From contig NZ_CAGY01000002.1 of NCBI RefSeq assembly GCF_000308055.1, positions 1-64,000 of the forward strand: DNA of 64,000 nucleotides, written 5' to 3'. The position numbers and the translations under genes are program-made. How positions within the stretch are numbered: position 1 is the first letter of the stretch; each line of letters opens with the position of its first letter. The DNA comes from Actinomyces sp. ph3 (GTDB lineage: Bacteria; Actinomycetota; Actinomycetes; Actinomycetales; Actinomycetaceae). Below, one piece after another: positions 5,252-40,832 of this stretch. Under the pieces are notes generated by a model, which did no database searches, was not told the origin of the DNA, and saw only the letters and a program-made list of their open reading frames with translations.

Positions 5252-6025
5252 TCAGTTCTGGGCGCTGGAGTACTCCACCAGGAGTTGCTGGAAGGGCGCT
5301 GCGGCCTTACGAGGAATCATCGATCCAAGTGCAAGAAGTTGCTCAGCGCTATAGCGCAGTTCGCGAACCGCAAAGGCCAGGTACTTAATGATGAGTTCAC
5401 GGCTATCAAAACGCTCGCCGTCCCAACCACCGAGGATCACCATTCCATACCAGCGCTCGACAAGCCTACGAGTATCCACCGGATTCTCGGGATCATAATC
5501 GGGCATCTCTTTGGCCAGTTTCTCAAGGAGCTGGAGCATCGCATCAACTCGATATGAGAAATGGTCATGGGCGGGATGACTGTCATTGACAGACTCAACG
5601 GTAAAAACGCGGTCTAGATCAGTCATCACCTGGTTGTCGGGGGCTGCAGCAAGACGCAGGTGTGCAGCGATCCACTCATTCATGGTCGTAACTTTTGCAC
5701 CGCGTTCTTCAAGGATCGGATCGCCGGGAGTACCCTCTTCGGTTTCGGCGGTCACAACCTCAACGTCGAAAATACCGAACGCCTCTTCGAAGGCTTCGAT
5801 AACATTCAGGACCAGGGCATCCTTCGTCGGGAAGTGATACATGACGGTCGGATGGGAAACACCGATTTCTTCGGCAAGATCTCGCAAAGAAAAACCGTAG
5901 TAGCCGCGCATTGACAACAACTGCGTTGCCCCGCGAATAATCGTTGTCCGGGTGGAACGTCCAACGGAGTAGCTACCTCGCTTCTTACGGGCGGGACCCG
6001 TCTGCGAATTTTCGTCTTCGCTCAC
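5252..6025 (-). CDS. TetR-family transcriptional regulator
   Basis: A 257-aa regulator. A basic N-terminal tail is followed by a TetR helix-turn-helix (about residues 25-70; SLRDLAEEIGVSHPTVMYHF is the recognition region) and an all-helical ligand domain. The start is GTG at 6025 because AAGGAGG ends 5 nt before it; the upstream in-frame ATG at 6040 places the Shine-Dalgarno inside the coding sequence and is rejected. It is the first gene of a two-gene unit with the serine hydrolase. Ligand and operator are not apparent. Confidence 0.85.
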   Translation of the reverse strand: MSEDENSQTGPARKKRGSYSVGRSTRTTIIRGATQLLSMRGYYGFSLRDLAEEIGVSHPTVMYHFPTKDALVLNVIEAFEEAFGIFDVEVVTAETEEGTPGDPILEERGAKVTTMNEWIAAHLRLAAAPDNQVMTDLDRVFTVESVNDSHPAHDHFSYRVDAMLQLLEKLAKEMPDYDPENPVDTRRLVERWYGMVILGGWDGERFDSRELIIKYLAFAVRELRYSAEQLLALGSMIPRKAAAPFQQLLVEYSSAQN

Positions 6026-6088
6026 GGCTACCTCCTTCATTCTTCAGTTCTGCTCTGTTGGGTGGGGATAACTCTTAAAGTCTAAGCG

Positions 6089-6126
6089 AAAATGCGGGTG
6101 GTGCGAAATTATTCGCACCACCCGCA
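6089..6126 (-). terminator. Terminator of clpB
   Basis: A perfect 15-bp stem (6093-6107 with 6112-6126) and a 4-nt loop, followed on the minus strand by TTTTCG. It lies 13 bp after the clpB stop codon and ends the clpB transcript before the TetR gene. Confidence 0.85.
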
Positions 6127-6138
6127 AGTCGCTACCGA

Positions 6139-8754
6139 TCAGTGATTGGATACCTCAACGCGGAGTCCTTCAAGATCGTCGCTGACATCGACGGTGACGG
6201 TGTCACCGTCTTCAACCTCGCCGCTCAGAAGCAGTTTGGCCAGTCGATCGCCGATCTCGCGCTGGATCAGCCTGCGCAGAGGACGAGCACCGTAGGCCGG
6301 GTCGTATCCTCGCCTGGTCAGCCAGCCTCGTGCACCTTCGGTGACATTCAGGCTGATACGGCGATCCTTCAGGCGATCCGCCATAGATTCGACCAAGAGA
6401 TCAACGATTCCAGACAGGTCCTCGAGGCTGAGCGGATCAAAGATCACGGTCTCATCCAGACGGTTGATGAACTCAGGCTTGAAGGAGGCACGCACGGCAT
6501 TCATCACACCTTCGCGCTTTTCTTCTTCACTGAGCTCAGGATCGGTCAGGAACATCGATCCCAAGTTCGAGGTCAGGATCAGGATTGTGTTCCTGAAGTC
6601 CACGGTGCGCCCCTGACCGTCGGTCAAACGTCCGTCATCCAAGACCTGCAAGAGGATGTTGAAGATCTCGGGGTCTGCCTTTTCAACCTCGTCCAGGAGG
6701 ACGACGCTGTAGGGGCGACGACGCACGGCCTCGGTCAGCTGACCGCCCTGTTCATAACCGACGTATCCCGGAGGGGCACCGACCAAACGGGCTACGGAGT
6801 GCTTCTCCGAGTATTCCGACATGTCGATTCGCACCATGGCGCGTTCATCATCGAAGAGGAACTCCGCCAAGGACTTGGCAAGTTCGGTCTTACCAACGCC
6901 CGTGGGGCCAAGGAAGAGGAAGGAACCTGTGGGTCGGTTCGGATCGGACAGGCCTGCACGCGAGCGGCGAACCGCATCGGAAACCGCGCGGACAGCATCC
7001 TTTTGGCCGATCAGTCGATGGGCAATGAAGTCCTCCATATGGACGAGCTTCTCGCTCTCGGTCTGGAGCAGCTTGCCCACGGGGATTCCAGTCCACGATT
7101 CGACAACCTCAGCGATCTCGGTCGGACCGACCTTCTCGGCGATCATCGGCTCATTGGCCTCGTTCGCCTTTTCTTCGGCCTCAACCTTTTCTTCCTCTTC
7201 GCGAATCTGACGTTCAATCTGAGGAATATCGCCGTTTTGCAAACGTCCCGCTTCTTCGAAGCGACCGGCACGAATCGCCAGCTCCAACTGGGTACGCAAC
7301 TCATCCAACTGGACGCGGAGCTCACCCACGCGGTTATGGCCAGCCTTTTCGGCTTCCCAACGGCTGGTGAGAGCAGCGAGCTCTTCATTCTTGTTTGCGA
7401 GGTCCTCGCGAAGCTTCTCGAGGCGCTCCGCCGTGGCCTCGTCCAGACCATCGGGGTCAGACTCGGTCAGGTAGGACTCTTCCATACGGAGACGATCCAC
7501 CTGGCGACGCAGAACGTCGATCTCCTCGGGCGAGGAGTCAAGTTCCATGCGCAGTCGGGAGGCGGCCTCGTCGATCAGGTCAATGGCCTTATCGGGAAGC
7601 TGACGCCCGGTGATGTAGCGGTCAGACAGCTGAGCTGCCGCAACCAAAGCACCGTCAGAAATGGTGATCTTGTGGTGTGCTTCGTACTTCGGTGCGATAC
7701 CGCGCAAGATTGCGACGGTGTCCTCAACCGAAGGCTCACCAACGAACACCTGCTGGAAACGACGCTCAAGAGCGGGGTCCTTTTCGATGTTCTCGCGGTA
7801 CTCATCCAGGGTTGTTGCGCCGACCATGCGGAGCTCGCCACGAGCCAGCATGGGCTTGAGCATATTGCCCGCGTCCATTGCGCCTTCGGAGCCGCCACCG
7901 GCACCGACGACCGTGTGAAGTTCGTCGATGAAGGTGATGATTTCGCCGTCAGATCGTTCGATTTCGTTAAGAACAGCCTTGAGGCGTTCCTCGAATTCAC
8001 CACGGTACTTCGCGCCCGCAACCATCCCGGTCAGATCAAGAGCGATCAGCTTCTTGTTCTTCAAAGATTCGGGGACGTCGCCAGCGACGATTCGCTGAGC
8101 GAGGCCTTCGACGACGGCGGTCTTACCGACGCCGGGCTCACCGATCAGAACAGGGTTGTTCTTGGTTCGACGAGACAACACCTGAATCACGCGGCGAATT
8201 TCGCTATCGCGACCAATCACCGGGTCCAGCTTGCCTTGGCGTGCAACCTCGGTCAGGTCGCGTCCGTACTTCTTGAGGGCCTCGAAGGAACCTTCGGGGT
8301 CAGCGCTGGTGATAGGTTCGGGGCGAAGCTCATCTAGAGCCTTCTGCAAGCGATCTGCGGTTGCGCCGTTTTCACGCAGGATCTCGCCAGCGCTATCGTC
8401 ATTTGCGGCCAACGCAATGAGCAGGTGCTCAGTGGAAACGTAGGCGTCTCCCTTAGCTTCTGCACGCTTGCGGGCATCGTTAATCACCTGGATCAGACCA
8501 CGTGAAGTCTGCGGTTGGGCAACGCTCGATCCGCTCGTCGACGGCAGAGCCACCAGTGCATTGCGCGTACGAGCGCCGATCTGCTGCGGATTTGCTCCAA
8601 TTGCTTGAAGCAGAGAGTAGGCAATGCCCTCACCCTGTTCAAGAAGTGCTTCCAAGAGATGCAGGGAATCCACCTGCGGGTTCCCAGCGGCCTGTGCCGA
8701 CTGGACCGCGCTGCTCACTGCCTCTTGGGCTTTGCTTGTAAATTGTTCAGTCAT
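6139..8754 (-). CDS. clpB: ClpB disaggregase
   Basis: An 871-aa Hsp100 ATP-dependent disaggregase that works with DnaK/GrpE/DnaJ to rescue aggregated proteins in the cytoplasm. Order: double Clp_N domain (1-145), AAA-1 with Walker A GEPGVGKT and sensor GATTLDEYR, a long coiled-coil middle domain (about 405-525, rich in Glu/Arg; typical of ClpB, absent from ClpA/ClpC), then AAA-2 with [13 protein letters not shown]-like SEYSEKH and the GARPLRR sensor-2. Full family length. Of two adjacent ATGs, the one at 8754 has the better spacing (4 nt) from AGGAGG. A HAIR operator lies about 65 bp upstream, so HspR control is expected, as for the dnaK operon. Confidence 0.97.
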
Positions 8755-31607: not shown

Positions 31608-32021
31608 ATGACACATGCATCTTCGACCGATCTTGATCGCGTTCTTGCTTCTCTTGATCCCACGCCCAGCGGTACTTACGTATTTTCCTTGGTTGACGAA
31701 ATCCCCCAGAACGTCGACATTTTTGCACTGATCCGCGACGAGGATTCCTACACCGTGGTTGTCGAGGAAGACGCCGCACGTGAAGCAGGAATCAACCCCG
31801 ATGAGCTGTACACGCGAATTGACTTGGGTTCTTCGACCGAGCTGGCTGCAATCGGAATCACGGCATCGATTGCTCAGATCCTTGCTGCGCGTTCAATTAC
31901 TGCGAATTTCATTGCCAGCCGCCGACACGATCACCTCTTTGTTCAGCCTGATCGCGCTCAGGAGGCAACGGCCCTCCTTGAAGATCTGGGAAGGCGCGCA
32001 AAGGGCTGGCTGCCCGCCTGA
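31608..32021 (+). CDS. ACT-domain protein
   Basis: A 137-aa small protein with an ACT_7-like fold: VFSLVDEIPQ, FALIRDEDSYTVVVEED, then the second ACT repeat ITASIAQILAARSITANFIASRRHDHLFVQ. Such proteins bind amino acids or act as stand-alone regulators; ligand unknown. The upstream frame is open to 31560 but the ATG at 31608, with TATCGT 6 nt before it, fits a leaderless start and the family length. Followed 50 bp later by the DUF4921 gene, which has its own leaderless-type promoter. Confidence 0.78.
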   Translation: MTHASSTDLDRVLASLDPTPSGTYVFSLVDEIPQNVDIFALIRDEDSYTVVVEEDAAREAGINPDELYTRIDLGSSTELAAIGITASIAQILAARSITANFIASRRHDHLFVQPDRAQEATALLEDLGRRAKGWLPA

Positions 32022-32071
32022 AATTTTCCTGTTCATCAGACGCGGAAGGGCGTTCGGAATAAAGTAGAAGC

Positions 32072-33388
32072 ATGGCTGTACTACCCACGGGAAGCGATGA
32101 GGCAATCCTCCGTCTAGCCGACGGCACGGTGAAACAGCGAAATCTTCTGACCGGAACTGAAGTGTGGACAGTTCCCGGTCGAGCTCATCGTCCCCTGACT
32201 CGTCCCGGTTCCACGCCACCCCTGATCGATCATGATGCCGATGGGCATCATTGCGCATTCTGCTCGGCGCGCTATCTTGAGACTCCGCCAGAGAAAGCCC
32301 GCGTGATCCGCACACACGCAGGGGAATGGGAAACTCTCCACGGCCTCGGCGCTGAGGAACTTAGAGATACCGTTGCGGAATTTCGGCGGATTCCCAACCT
32401 TTTCGAGATCGTTTCGTATAACTATTGGCACCTCAATCACGGCCACGTTCCTTCCGAGGCCGAGCGGCGCAGGATGGCGGAGTACCTTGCCTCGCCCCAG
32501 GGGTACGACCACGTGATGCACGTGGTGCGCGCACGCTTCATGGCCTCGGGCGGGAGCGCCGAGGAGTTTGAGGAACTGTCGGATTCCGAGAAGCTCAGCC
32601 AAGCGAATGGTTTCTTTTCGGGCGGGCACGATCTGATCGTTGGTCGACGTCACTACGTTGATGGAGCAAAGGACACGTCCCAGCTAGCTTCGGCTGGGAC
32701 GCTGACTCCCGAGGAACACTTCCAGTACATGTCAATGACCGTGCGGGCAATGCGGGACCTGTACGACTTGGATCCGGCTGTGAAGTACGTGGTGGCTTTC
32801 CAGAACTGGCTCAAGCCTGCGGGTGCGTCTTTTGATCACCTGCATAAGCAGCTTGTGGCGATTGATGAGTTCTCGACGCAGACGCATGACGAGATTGAGC
32901 GCGTGCGGACCTATCCGGGAATCTATGACGAGCTCTTGAAGATTGCGGCGACACGTGGGCTGATTTTGGCGCAAAACGATCATGCTGTGGCGATGGCTGG
33001 GTTCGGGCATCGCTATCCCTCCTTGGCGATTTGGCCACTTCACGCGCCGGCTGAACCCTGGGAGTACTCCCCTGAGCAATTACGAGGCATCAGCGACCTT
33101 GTGCACGCAATGCATGCGGCGACGGGTGCAGAGGTTCCGTGTAACGAGGAATGGTACTACCGGCCCCCGAGTTCGTCGATCCCCATGCGCATGAGGATTT
33201 TGATCAAGTGGAGGATCTCCACAATCGCCGGTTTTGAGGGCGGGACAAGGATTTACCTCAATACGATCGATCCATGGTCCGTGCACCAGCGGATGCTGGA
33301 ACGTCTGGTTGTTATGCGCGATGAGTGTTCGATCGCTCAGATGAAGCTGGGCGAGGAGTGCAAAGTCACGCCGCTGCTACTGAGATAG
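32072..33388 (+). CDS. DUF4921 family protein (GalT/HIT-like fold)
   Basis: 438 aa, actinobacterial DUF4921. The sequence has a GalT/HIT-like look: CAFCSARY near residue 61 (possible metal site with later His), and the HxHxQ-like ASFDHLHKQLVAID with the catalytic His region. EWYYRPPSSS and RIYLNTIDPW are conserved-looking C-terminal motifs. It is probably a nucleotidyl transferase or hydrolase acting on a nucleotide-sugar or dinucleotide, but no reaction is established. TAAAGT lies 6 nt before the ATG: leaderless. The stop is followed by the AT-rich island. Confidence 0.75.
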   Translation: MAVLPTGSDEAILRLADGTVKQRNLLTGTEVWTVPGRAHRPLTRPGSTPPLIDHDADGHHCAFCSARYLETPPEKARVIRTHAGEWETLHGLGAEELRDTVAEFRRIPNLFEIVSYNYWHLNHGHVPSEAERRRMAEYLASPQGYDHVMHVVRARFMASGGSAEEFEELSDSEKLSQANGFFSGGHDLIVGRRHYVDGAKDTSQLASAGTLTPEEHFQYMSMTVRAMRDLYDLDPAVKYVVAFQNWLKPAGASFDHLHKQLVAIDEFSTQTHDEIERVRTYPGIYDELLKIAATRGLILAQNDHAVAMAGFGHRYPSLAIWPLHAPAEPWEYSPEQLRGISDLVHAMHAATGAEVPCNEEWYYRPPSSSIPMRMRILIKWRISTIAGFEGGTRIYLNTIDPWSVHQRMLERLVVMRDECSIAQMKLGEECKVTPLLLR

Positions 33389-33515
33389 GTTTTATCTAAG
33401 GCCCCCTGGAGGAAATCTATAAAGTATTGGTGCGTAGTCCCTCCAAAGTACCGATTTCGTCTTTGCTCCCTTAGGAAAAGACCCCTCGAGCGCTAGCAGT
33501 TTTAGTAGAGTGAAC

Positions 33516-33560
33516 ATGAGCCTCGACACAGAGCCAGTTATCTCTAGAAATAACGAGTAG
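33516..33560 (+). CDS. 14-codon leader ORF before the IrrE-like/PIN pair
   Basis: ATG at 33516 to TAG at 33558 encodes MSLDTEPVISRNNE. TAGAGT lies 4 nt before the ATG, so the transcript may begin at this start codon. The stop falls directly before AGGAGG of the downstream GTG (33574), an arrangement suited to translational coupling or attenuation. It spans the inverted repeat at 33537-33554. Expression is not proven; the ORF is short enough to arise by chance. Confidence 0.35.
   Translation: MSLDTEPVISRNNE
33537..33554. promoter_or_regulatory. Small inverted repeat upstream of the IrrE-like gene
   Basis: GTTAT (33537-33541), 8 nt, ATAAC (33550-33554), 20 bp before the GTG start. Candidate autoregulatory operator, as is usual for toxin-antitoxin-type units; short and therefore weak. 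Confidence 0.3.
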
Positions 33561-33573
33561 CCCAGGAGGAACC

Positions 33574-34749
33574 GTGTACATAGATGTACACATCGGTGGT
33601 GAGACTGTTCAAATCTCTTACGAAGTGTTTCAACTTCTCACAGAAAATTCTGTGATTGCGGATTATTCAGAAATACGCAAGGCACTAGAAAAAAGCAAAA
33701 TAAACTTCAAGGTTCTCGAAAGACTTGCAGAGAAAGCCTGGATACCGCTTCCTTTATTCTTTTCGCCCCTTCCATTCGTCAAGTCACAAATCTTGCAAAA
33801 AGAGAAGAAGCTCATCCAACACATTCGCAAGGACACCTTGAACATAGGATCCCGACAAACTATCGAGTTATCCCAGATTGAACTTATCATCCGCGATTTG
33901 ATTCAAAAACAACACTATGTGCGCAAGTACGCAGACGACCTCTCGGAGAACAAGATTCGTGGCCTAATCAAAAAACCGTCGAAAAGACTCGAGCACGATG
34001 CAGCAAAATTATTAGATGCTCTCCACCTCACACACGATGAAATACGAAACTCAAGTAACAAGAGTAAAGCACTGGAACTAATTCTGAACCGCCTAGGAGA
34101 ACAACAGATATTAGTCTCACAGAGCGTTCAAAACTACATGCCACAGCAATTACGAAATATTCACTTCAGTGGCATGACGATTGATGACACGAAAGTTCCC
34201 TTTATTTTTCTTGCCGGCGGGAAAGAAAACAATTCCGAAGAACCCGTGGGAAGAAGAATCTTCACTCTAATTCTCATGACGGTACTGATCGCGCGAAAGG
34301 AGTTCCGACCTGTTGTCTGGGATGCATCGAGCCTAGGTGCTGATTTTGGTTATGTCTACAACCTTACTGGCACCATCCTTATGCCTAAATCAGAAATGAA
34401 AATTGATCCAGACACCGACCTAGACGGAATTAAACGTCTCGCTGACCAATTTAAAGTGACTCCCAGCGCTGTAACAGTCAGAGCACTTCATCTAAAAAAG
34501 CTAACCCGCGAACAAGCAAGTAGATATTTAGATGAACTGCAACAAGAATTTATAAGTCGGCCAGCAACGCACCCACGAATTCCACAGCCCGAAAAAGCCG
34601 TTTTGAAATACGCCGGGTTCGAAACAATTAGACGGCTACTACCCGCGCTTGACTCGAAACGTCTCTCGTTAAAAGAGTTTTTGCGCGTCGGATGTCTAAA
34701 CAAACTAAATAGACGGCAGATAGGAGACCTTAGGGGGATCATTGAGTAA
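33574..34749 (+). CDS. XRE/IrrE-like protein lacking the HExxH protease motif
   Basis: 391 aa. The N-terminal third resembles the helix-turn-helix of XRE-ImmA/IrrE proteins (INFKVLERLAEKAWIPLPLFF, residues 43-63). The C-terminal half follows the IrrE domain plan: HFSGMTIDDTKVPFIFLAGG (197-216), FTLILMTVLIA (230-240), and the late LADQFKVTPSAVTVRALHLKKLTREQ, the usual end of the domain. At the place of the FTLAHExxH metalloprotease motif there is LILMTVLIA, with no His or Glu, so a zinc protease is ruled out. GTG start with AGGAGG 4 nt upstream. AT-rich compared with neighbours and unusual Lys/Ile content: probably horizontally acquired. It overlaps the PIN gene by 8 bp, so it is probably antitoxin-like or the sensing half of the pair (inference). 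Confidence 0.7.
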   Translation: MYIDVHIGGETVQISYEVFQLLTENSVIADYSEIRKALEKSKINFKVLERLAEKAWIPLPLFFSPLPFVKSQILQKEKKLIQHIRKDTLNIGSRQTIELSQIELIIRDLIQKQHYVRKYADDLSENKIRGLIKKPSKRLEHDAAKLLDALHLTHDEIRNSSNKSKALELILNRLGEQQILVSQSVQNYMPQQLRNIHFSGMTIDDTKVPFIFLAGGKENNSEEPVGRRIFTLILMTVLIARKEFRPVVWDASSLGADFGYVYNLTGTILMPKSEMKIDPDTDLDGIKRLADQFKVTPSAVTVRALHLKKLTREQASRYLDELQQEFISRPATHPRIPQPEKAVLKYAGFETIRRLLPALDSKRLSLKEFLRVGCLNKLNRRQIGDLRGIIE

Positions 34750-35194
34750 CGTCACGACACCTTGCTTTTTTGTCGATACAAACGCTCTTTCAAAACTCGC
34801 GCCAAGATATAGGGCAACGAAGTTCTTTCGAAGTTACGCTCATTTACCTTCCGTTGTCATTAAAGAAGCTGGCAATCCTGAAGACATCAGCATTTTAAAG
34901 GAGCTTGAAAAGAGCATAACGCCACAGATCCTTCAGAATCTCATAAAAATAATGGAGCAAGTTCCCACACGTGACACGAGACTAGTAGATCTATATGGCA
35001 ATAAAGGAAAAGCAGACCCCATCATCGTTGCTTACGCACTTACCCAAGACTCCCTCGAGGCAGACGGTCTTTTCCCCCTCCATGAGGTCTACATTGTCAC
35101 CAACGACAAGGCTGTCCGCGAAATGGGAGAGCGTTTTTCGATCAAGGTTCTTTCATCCGACGACTTTATCCGCCAGATAGACGAAAACAGCTAG
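34742..35194 (+). CDS. PIN-domain ribonuclease-like protein
   Basis: 150 aa. PIN fold with all four acidic metal ligands visible: Asp12 in FFVDTNALSKL, Glu42 in VVIKEAGN, Asp92 in GKADPIIVAYAL, Asp122 in YIVTNDKAVREM. PIN proteins of toxin-antitoxin and DUF4411-type pairs cut RNA with Mg2+/Mn2+; DUF4411 proteins commonly sit with IrrE-like partners, as here. TTG start with AGGGGG about 4 nt upstream, overlapping the upstream stop by 8 bp: strict translational coupling. Same AT-rich composition as its partner. RNA target unknown. Confidence 0.8.
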   Translation: MSNVTTPCFFVDTNALSKLAPRYRATKFFRSYAHLPSVVIKEAGNPEDISILKELEKSITPQILQNLIKIMEQVPTRDTRLVDLYGNKGKADPIIVAYALTQDSLEADGLFPLHEVYIVTNDKAVREMGERFSIKVLSSDDFIRQIDENS

Positions 35195-35200
35195 CCTATA

Positions 35201-35237
35201 AAAAACTTGTGGCCCCAACATCAGTTGGGGCCACAAG
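35201..35237 (-). terminator. Terminator of tRNA-Ser (and of the convergent PIN gene)
   Basis: A perfect 14-bp stem (35206-35219 with 35224-35237), loop ATCA, followed on the minus strand by TTTTTATAGG. It lies 8 bp beyond the tRNA 3' end. Confidence 0.9.
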
Positions 35238-35245
35238 CCTAAACG

Positions 35246-35332
35246 CGGTAGCGCAGGGATTTGAACCCTGGGTGGCTGTTACACCACACAGCATTTCGAG
35301 TGCTGCACCTTCGGCCGCTCGGACACGCTACC
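35246..35332 (-). tRNA. tRNA-Ser (CGA)
   Basis: An 87-nt class II tRNA. Acceptor GGTAGCG/CGCTACC with discriminator G, anticodon stem CAGCA/TGCTG around loop CTCGAAA (anticodon CGA, reading UCG), a long variable arm, and T-arm AGGG-TTCAAAT-CCCT. CCA is not encoded. Its 3' end faces the AT-rich IrrE-like/PIN island. Confidence 0.95.
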
Positions 35333-39806: not shown

Positions 39807-40832
39807 TTACCAGGCGCCAGTACCACCGGTTCCGCGTTTGCGATCTTTGTTTTGACGCTCCTCGCGATCGGTTTGCTCCTGACGCTTTTGCATCTCTTCA
39901 CGCTTCGCGCGTTGCTCTTTGGTTTCTCCCTGATAAGGATCCTTGGACTTGTCTTGGTTCTGTTTGTCCTTATCCTGATTCTGCTGATCCTGGTTTTGCT
40001 TGTCTTTATCCTTGTTGTCTTGGTTTTGCTTATCTTTGTCTTGGTTCTGCTTGTCCTTATCCTGATTCTGTTTGTCCTTGTCCTTGTCCTGATTATCCTG
40101 CTTCTGAGCCTGCTGCTGCTTTTGCTGAGCACGATCATGAGCCTTGTCAGCATCGGCGCCGCCACCGCCGCCCTGCTGATTCTGGTTCTGCTGATTCTGC
40201 GTCGAGGCCGCGGACTGACACGGGGCCACAACCTCTCCCATTTCTTTATAAATTTCAGCAGCACGCGCACGATCCGTACTCATCGCCGCATCACCCTGCT
40301 TTTCCAGAGCAAGCGCCAAATTCATTCTGACGGTGCATTCATAGGAGTAGGTCTCAATTCGACCATCCTCGATCTGCTTCGCCTTCGGAACCCGGTCCCA
40401 CGCAATGCGCAACTCAGCAACGGCCTCGTCGGGATGATCAAGCTTCACATGCTGCGTCCCCGCGTTGTAATGCGCAACCCAGCTGGCAGGGCCAAGATCT
40501 CCCCAATAAATCTGCCGTGAATAGGAGTTCAGAGCACCCTCGTTATTCCCCGCGCGCGCACTGCGACCCGTATTCCATGCCCACAGCGGCAGGACGGTCA
40601 TATAAATTCCGACAGCTAGCGCAACCACAACAATGGGGAGAGACCACCACAGAGGGCGCAATAGTTTCCCATTGCGTCGCGGTTTCTCCGCCCCGTTCCT
40701 CTTTGCCGAGGCCGGGGTCGCGCTGGGGCCACCATCTCCCGTTTGGGCGTCAGTGGCGGCCTCGCCGTCTACAGGAGGCTGATAGAAAGCAGTAGGACGC
40801 TGTTCCTTATCGCTGCGGCGCTTAAATCGCAC
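39807..40832 (-). CDS. TPR (BatC-like) membrane protein with charged QDKDKQN repeat tail
   Basis: 341 aa. A basic cytoplasmic N-terminus (1-58), a membrane helix (about 62-83), a TPR-like helical region (90-210; GALNSYSRQIYWGD, VAHYNAGTQHVKLDHPDEAVAELRIAW, CTVRMNLALALEKQGDA), a Gln/Gly segment, then about 90 residues of QNQDKDK-type repeats (240-315) and a KRGTGGTGAW end. It corresponds to BatC in Bat (Bacteroides aerotolerance-like) loci. GTG start with AGGAGG 4 nt upstream, overlapping the VWA gene by 11 bp. The antisense frame of the repeat looks like a hydrophobic protein but is an artefact. Confidence 0.75.
   Translation of the reverse strand: MRFKRRSDKEQRPTAFYQPPVDGEAATDAQTGDGGPSATPASAKRNGAEKPRRNGKLLRPLWWSLPIVVVALAVGIYMTVLPLWAWNTGRSARAGNNEGALNSYSRQIYWGDLGPASWVAHYNAGTQHVKLDHPDEAVAELRIAWDRVPKAKQIEDGRIETYSYECTVRMNLALALEKQGDAAMSTDRARAAEIYKEMGEVVAPCQSAASTQNQQNQNQQGGGGGADADKAHDRAQQKQQQAQKQDNQDKDKDKQNQDKDKQNQDKDKQNQDNKDKDKQNQDQQNQDKDKQNQDKSKDPYQGETKEQRAKREEMQKRQEQTDREERQNKDRKRGTGGTGAW

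Follow-up and report, generated by a model that had tools for sequence, protein, structure and literature searches.

At the 3′ end of a tRNA-Ser gene of Actinomyces sp. ph3 lies a pair of overlapping genes that is best explained, in our judgment, as a two-gene toxin-antitoxin-like module of the VapBC52 and RosmerTA type. In this module, which we consider probable, a PIN RNase is paired with an antitoxin that carries a pseudoprotease IrrE domain and that would act without self-cleavage. Pairs of an ImmA-domain antitoxin and a PIN nuclease have already been published (PMC2701414, PMC10440598, PMC13273310), and the original prediction of an undescribed system was in this respect too strong. The new part is the protease-dead subfamily; in the literature searched, which covers few subscription papers and was seen for several queries through the top-ranked results, we found no account of ImmA/IrrE antitoxins of such a family. 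The features of the locus are listed in Table 1, in the coordinates of the window, i.e., the whole stretch of 64,000 nucleotides that was analyzed.

Table 1. Gene pair, insert and neighboring features in the window.
Feature	Position	Strand	Description or basis
Gene 1	33574..34749	+	GTG start, 391 aa, middle domain ImmA/IrrE-like but protease-dead; putative antitoxin and sensor
Gene 2	34742..35194	+	TTG start, 150-aa PIN-domain nuclease, D/E/D/D acids intact; proposed RNase toxin
Ribosome-binding site of gene 1, AGGAGG	33564..33569	+	Sequence
AT-rich insert, from the stop of the upstream gene (33386-33388) to the tRNA-Ser terminator	33389..35199	.	GC content and alignments of relatives' DNA
14-bp perfect inverted repeat, probable terminator	35206..35237	.	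In the block common to relatives
tRNA-Ser(cga)	35245..35332	-	3′ end toward the insert, 50 bp from the gene pair; same tRNA at this spot in 3 relatives
Arg227 codon	34252..34254	+	Invariant in 49/49 rows; precedes the lost first His by 7 residues
Slot of the lost HExxH, L234-M235-T236-V237-L238	34273..34287	+	Alignment to intact relatives

The coordinates agree with the original prediction of two genes that overlap by 8 bp and end 50 bp from the 3′ end of tRNA-Ser; this tRNA lies on the minus strand, and thus its 3′ end faces the gene pair. The pair is also, as had been predicted, poorer in GC than both flanks, with 0.443 for positions 33389-35199 against 0.554 and 0.552 for the adjoining 5 kb. 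Its 1.8 kb is the most AT-rich in the window, the lowest-GC 1.8-kb stretch starting outside 32000-35300 having a value of 0.508. DNA alignments with three genomes of the same genus stop at 33382-33393 and restart at 35195-35200, with other DNA in between (approximately 7.1 kb and 0.9 kb in two of them, and 1.4 kb in the other). Because these genomes carry different DNA between matching flanks, we conclude that the place beside tRNA-Ser(cga) is a variable spot in near relatives. The probable terminator hairpin falls inside the block that the relatives share, and it is therefore host flank rather than insert. No direct repeat was found at the insert ends, and neither an integrase nor another sizeable gene was seen within the insert; hence, an integrase-type insertion into the tRNA is not supported. 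A promoter scan found none. Across homologous loci, the GC content of the pair is below that of its surroundings in 43 of 47, and a tRNA gene is located within 1 kb in 6 of the 53 loci collected from named records.

Some other features of this region were noted in passing. When the loci at the same spot were compared (L104, L105, L106 and L121), the cargo of about 7.1 kb in one near relative was seen to include a C5 DNA methylase adjoining a HATPase_c_3 protein. Scattered repeats of the form TCATCCCCGCGTGTGCGGGGA are found in L105 (about 1640-1905) and in L106 (about 1950 and about 2630, minus strand), alongside a 93-aa reading frame common to the two genomes; we take these repeats to resemble solitary type I-E-like CRISPR repeats, and none of this type was found in the window at up to 3 mismatches. 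In the window itself, the minus strand at 39807-40832 encodes a protein of low complexity containing a long stretch rich in KDKQNQ.

Database searches say little about gene 1. For the window protein alone there was no convincing match in Pfam, NCBIfam or PADLOC, and PDB profile searches with gene 1 returned nothing useful. For the family, matches in Pfam, NCBIfam and PADLOC are marginal at best, and PHROGs offers only a general 'transcriptional regulator' family, PHROG 2439, which matches four of five gene-1 proteins tested (E 5.5e-9 for the window protein). The Peptidase_M78 profile matches 4 of 49 members, with a best E of 6e-4, versus all 10 intact reference proteins. PADLOC RmrA models match weakly, at most 14 of the 49 members for one model (best E 7e-6), and do not match the window protein at E<=0.01.

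Profile-profile comparison is far more informative. The 49-row gene-1 alignment matches 10 HExxH-bearing ImmA proteins at 99.2% (hhalign, E 2.6e-19, 327 columns). The middle domain alone matches intact ImmA at 99.1%, and the catalytic part around the motif slot alone at 97.7%; the C-terminal part alone gives 0.4% against the intact relatives, which is not significant. By sequence comparison, then, the middle of gene 1 is homologous to the ImmA/IrrE domain, in keeping with the IrrE relationship proposed at the outset. The helix-turn-helix that had been proposed with it is recovered only in part: positions 42-70 correspond to the final portion of the XRE domain in intact relatives (28-29 aligned residues, 75-84%), but residues 1-41 do not align, and no Pfam HTH match was obtained at E<=0.01 in any of the 49 members, a weak test because only 1-2 of the 10 intact references are matched (1 of 10 by the HTH model).

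Alignment to the intact relatives places the H, E and second H of the motif at L234, M235 and L238 of the window protein, whose slot reads IFTL-ILMTVLIA. The original observation that this slot (LILMTVLIA) has neither His nor Glu extends to the 49 aligned homologs, window included: HExxH is present in none of them, and the motif columns are free of both residues. The replacements in these 49 rows are Leu (48) and Ala (1) for the first His, Met (25) and Leu (24) for the Glu, and Leu (40), Met (4), Cys (3) and Phe (2) for the second His. This alignment omits five of the 53 named loci (L061, L063, L074, L075 and L076) because of a broken frame or a contig end. HExxH is kept, by comparison, in all 10 reference proteins of the alignment and in all 22 gene-1 counterparts found in the 25 reference loci examined. 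Eleven of these 22 proteins were found by similarity to gene 1 and 11 through DUF4411, and a DUF4411-type neighbor was detected for 20 of them. Because the three search patterns for the 53 loci lie outside the HExxH slot, they did not directly select for loss of the motif; a query built from dead proteins does, however, favor its own subfamily. In a quick tree that sampled 26 dead rows out of the 49 (about every second) together with the 10 intact proteins, the two sets are split by one branch with an SH-aLRT of 100, subject to a long-branch warning, and one change is needed.

The region of the lost site is also the more constrained part of the gene. Pooled over ten close pairs picked by hand, gene 1 as a whole has a dN/dS of 0.144, with 0.086 in the dead-site region (residues 222-272) and 0.153 elsewhere in the gene; the pooled value for the PIN gene, from nine pairs, is 0.178. 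Gly226, Arg227 and Thr231 are invariant in 49/49 rows, the position of F230 is Phe in 44/49, and Ala occupies the position of Arg227 in the 10 intact reference proteins. A compensating metal site is not apparent, as no His or Cys column reaches 90% in the 49-row alignment; the commonest Cys columns are two C-terminal ones (41/49 and 40/49), and a His found in 35/49 rows shortly before Gly226 is absent from the window protein. These sequence data support the interpretation of the IrrE-like domain of gene 1 as a fixed pseudoprotease across many genera, under purifying selection, and the loss of HExxH looks both old and maintained.

The four acidic residues of the PIN partner, in contrast to the lost motif of gene 1, are all present, as had been predicted. 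They are D12, E42, D92 and D122 of the window protein when the start residue is counted, equivalent to Asp11, Glu41, Asp91 and Asp121 in P0002 numbering, and they are kept in 47/47 aligned PINs; three of the 49 PIN matches (L038, L063 and L074) were left out of this alignment as short, fragmentary or a duplicate of an unnamed locus. A predicted model of the window PIN has a mean pLDDT of 90.4, with confidently alternating helices and strands; PDB profile searches gave marginal matches only, some of them to designed or unrelated proteins. At E<=0.01, Pfam PIN_4 matches 21 of the 47 PINs, the window PIN not being among them, and DUF4411 matches 2 of 47, with an E of 0.12 for the window PIN; profile comparison of the family PINs with nine DUF4411-type neighbors was weak (13.8%). 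A search of the window's own genome for DUF4411 gave no match, but it carries no weight by itself because its controls gave none either. A DUF4411 partner is thus not supported; judging from profile matches, gene 2 encodes a PIN_4-like nuclease that belongs to a different PIN branch from the DUF4411 toxins commonly found in this place. In two loci, L028 (7170-7811) and L027 (7170-7808), the PIN gene extends by about 60 more residues, and the extension in L028 holds CxxC-like pairs, a possible zinc ribbon.

The named records contain 53 loci with relatives of gene 1, 52 in Actinomycetota and one in Candidatus Saccharibacteria, from 13 named families. In addition, nine strong relatives besides the window were found among 396 genomes of the order; seven of the nine are probably the genomes of named loci, and the two sets are hence not independent. 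No gene-1 match was found in the 34 other genomes of the same genus. Consistent with the predicted pairing of the two genes, which is nearly general, gene 1 is accompanied by a PIN match detected by BLAST in 49 of the 53 named loci, although in L063 this match is a fragment. An in-frame start codon is found at a 4-nt overlap in 44 of these 49 loci; because the start nearest the overlap was picked, the count speaks for the presence of such a codon and not for its use.

The loci without a PIN match by BLAST are L077, L058, L075 and L076. In the first of these, from Candidatus Saccharibacteria, a PIN-like frame overlaps gene 1 by 4 nt and has no significant alignment to the family PINs; the second has an open gene-1 frame and only a PIN-like C-terminal fragment, where the sequence contains ambiguous bases. 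Broken gene-1 frames were seen in L061, L063, L075, L076 and probably L048; one of these loci, from a Sinomonas genome in which the first part of gene 1 is in a different frame, nevertheless has an undamaged PIN. As a separate observation, L077 at 5887-7526 combines a 27%-identical dead IrrE-like gene and the PIN-like frame beside a conjugation coupling protein.

In the reverse survey, the family PIN was detected in 13 of the 396 genomes at E<=1e-5. Ten of these PINs are undamaged, and they belong to the same 10 genomes that have a strong gene-1 match, which in one case is split over two contig ends. The remaining three are lone PINs, in G817 (L115), G630 (L118, L120) and G786 (L119), with no gene 1 within about 1.5 kb on each side; each is disrupted by stops or a frame break or is a 34-residue fragment. 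Few though they are, the damage in all three lone PINs agrees with what would be expected if a toxin is retained only together with its antitoxin.

The surroundings of the pair were sampled through eight neighbor proteins chosen by eye. Six match a transposase, a relaxase, an integrase (two), a GmrSD/HNH protein and a conjugation coupling protein; the other two match nothing. No relatives were found in phage records, or in viral contigs queried with the single protein, a two-row gene-1 alignment and a two-row PIN alignment. Plasmid records gave three distant gene-1 matches, of which the two examined consist of an HExxH-bearing ImmA gene followed by a DUF4411 gene, and no match to the PIN protein.

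Among the known systems closest to the module is VapBC52 of Mycobacterium tuberculosis, in which a long antitoxin with an IrrE-like middle domain is likewise partnered with a PIN protein. As reported in a 2026 study (PMC13273310), VapB52 uses both its N- and its C-terminal domain to bind a PIN tRNase; single-stranded DNA activates the IrrE peptidase, and the N-terminal domain is cut off. A double mutant of the Zn site is reported there to keep toxin binding and to lose self-cleavage. PDB entry 9vzy, which is matched by a reference protein and its DUF4411 partner, is probably the VapBC52 complex, judging from the chain names and from its 3 and 6 chains. The [FML]RT motif of the reference proteins aligns with DFR of the solved chain. 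This motif is present in 10/10 intact references versus 2/49 dead proteins; a stricter cleavage pattern, P..[FML]RT, was found in 1/49 dead and 0/10 intact proteins and was thus uninformative, which is why the relaxed form was used. In VapB52, HEXXH is accompanied by a cysteine switch and an FR cleavage motif, whereas the window family has HExxH in 0/49 and an FR-type motif in 2/49 members, and the toxin of VapBC52 is a DUF4411 PIN tRNase, whereas the window PIN is not DUF4411 by Pfam.

Among the other close systems, RosmerTA, i.e., NetFlax node D25, combines the ImmA-domain antitoxin RmrA with varied RmrT toxins (PMC10440598). It resembles the window pair in having an ImmA-domain antitoxin beside a toxin, with PIN-like partners reported for this node, but RmrA is described with a protease domain, and the accessible text mentions no dead subfamily. 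Fusions of COG2856 and Xre in operons with PIN toxins were reported by Makarova in 2009 (PMC2701414); there, however, COG2856 is described by its HEXXH motif and as a proposed protease. In Deinococcus PprI, Arg85 and Phe88, which precede the first catalytic His by 7 and 4 residues, are reported to take part in ssDNA binding (PMC10904395); R227 and F230 stand at the same distances from the lost His of the window protein. PprI, unlike the window protein, is an active metalloprotease that cleaves a repressor (DdrO), and its other reported ssDNA contacts are in a GAF-like domain (PMC10904395). The spacing of R227 and F230 is for us a lead only, in position, to a retained or altered sensing of nucleic acid.

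By analogy with these systems, gene 1 would be a long antitoxin of the VapB52/RmrA kind, with an IrrE-like middle domain between N- and C-terminal parts. The IrrE domain lacks the zinc and catalytic residues, and the FR cleavage motif, which in VapB52-type proteins lies between the N-terminal and middle domains, cannot be recognized. Gene 2, when free, would cut RNA, by analogy tRNA. With HExxH and the FR motif gone, ssDNA-triggered self-cleavage could not release this RNase, and gene 1 would not free it by cutting itself. Two main routes of release are then conceivable: the dead domain might bind a signal, possibly single-stranded DNA, and change shape, or host proteases might degrade gene 1. 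Because the family corresponds to a natural state of the VapB52 Zn mutant, with the FR motif lost as well, neutralization by gene 1 without self-cleavage is the simplest reading by this analogy. The toxin-binding mode of VapB52 may not carry over to the window family, since the C-terminal part is not matched (0.4%), residues 1-41 are unaligned and the similarity of the PINs to DUF4411 is weak (13.8%). Of the original proposal that the IrrE domain works without proteolysis and restrains an RNase, the element that stands is a fixed pseudoprotease (HExxH in 0/49, dN/dS 0.086) beside a PIN that keeps its acids; that gene 1 neutralizes a toxic RNase and no longer cleaves itself, and what would trigger release, we infer from the systems above and propose for the gene pair. 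More tentatively, the IrrE domain, once an ssDNA-activated self-cleaving protease, might now be a purely allosteric, reversible sensor of nucleic acid, from which the RNase is released without proteolysis.

How much the dead domain does is the point on which a classical type II toxin-antitoxin system differs from the proposed module. In that case the dead IrrE domain would be a scaffold only, with no sensing, and destruction of gene 1 by Lon or Clp would free the RNase. We regard this as a serious contender, with odds somewhat against it. The two-gene unit is conserved, all three lone PINs are damaged, and the Zn site of VapB52 is reported to be dispensable for toxin binding (PMC13273310). A scaffold, however, need not hold the dead-site dN/dS at 0.086 versus 0.153, nor an invariant G226-R227 (49/49), although this constraint could possibly reflect packing of the protein core. 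About equally probable is phage defense of the RosmerTA kind, a reading compatible with the module we favor, in which gene 1 would sense a phage signal and the PIN nuclease would shut down the cell. Phage protection is reported for RosmerTA (PMC10440598) and for VapC52 (PMC13273310); the weak RmrA matches (up to 14/49 for one PADLOC model), the mobile-element or restriction proteins among the neighbors (6 of 8, chosen by eye), and the pair of DNA methylase and HATPase at the same spot in a near relative all point in this direction. Yet the RmrA matches are marginal, with none for the window protein at E<=0.01, and phage records and viral contigs contain no relative at the sensitivities used.

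It is improbable that gene 1 is a transcription regulator, or an RNA-binding partner, of a housekeeping PIN nuclease rather than an antitoxin. PHROG 2439 would agree with such a role in 4/5 gene-1 proteins, but this 'transcriptional regulator' model may itself include XRE-ImmA proteins, and a housekeeping function fits poorly with a sporadic distribution (0/34 other genomes of the genus), a variable spot, and a GC content below the surroundings in 43/47 loci. That the pair is a functionless, degenerate remnant, as the lost protease motif and the broken gene-1 frames in at least 4 of 53 named loci (L061, L063, L075 and L076) could suggest, is very improbable given the closely similar replacements in the slot over 49 rows, dN/dS values far below 1, PIN acids kept in 47/47, and loci that span 13 named families.

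ImmA/IrrE-type antitoxins have been proposed to act by proteolysis, and the dead subfamily constitutes a natural separation-of-function experiment on this idea. It has discarded the catalytic site and has kept the domain, the partner and a strong constraint, and it thus poses the question of whether sensing and neutralization can work without cutting. If the tentative proposal of a reversible pseudoprotease sensor is true, the gene pair would represent a resettable defense or stress switch across actinobacteria.
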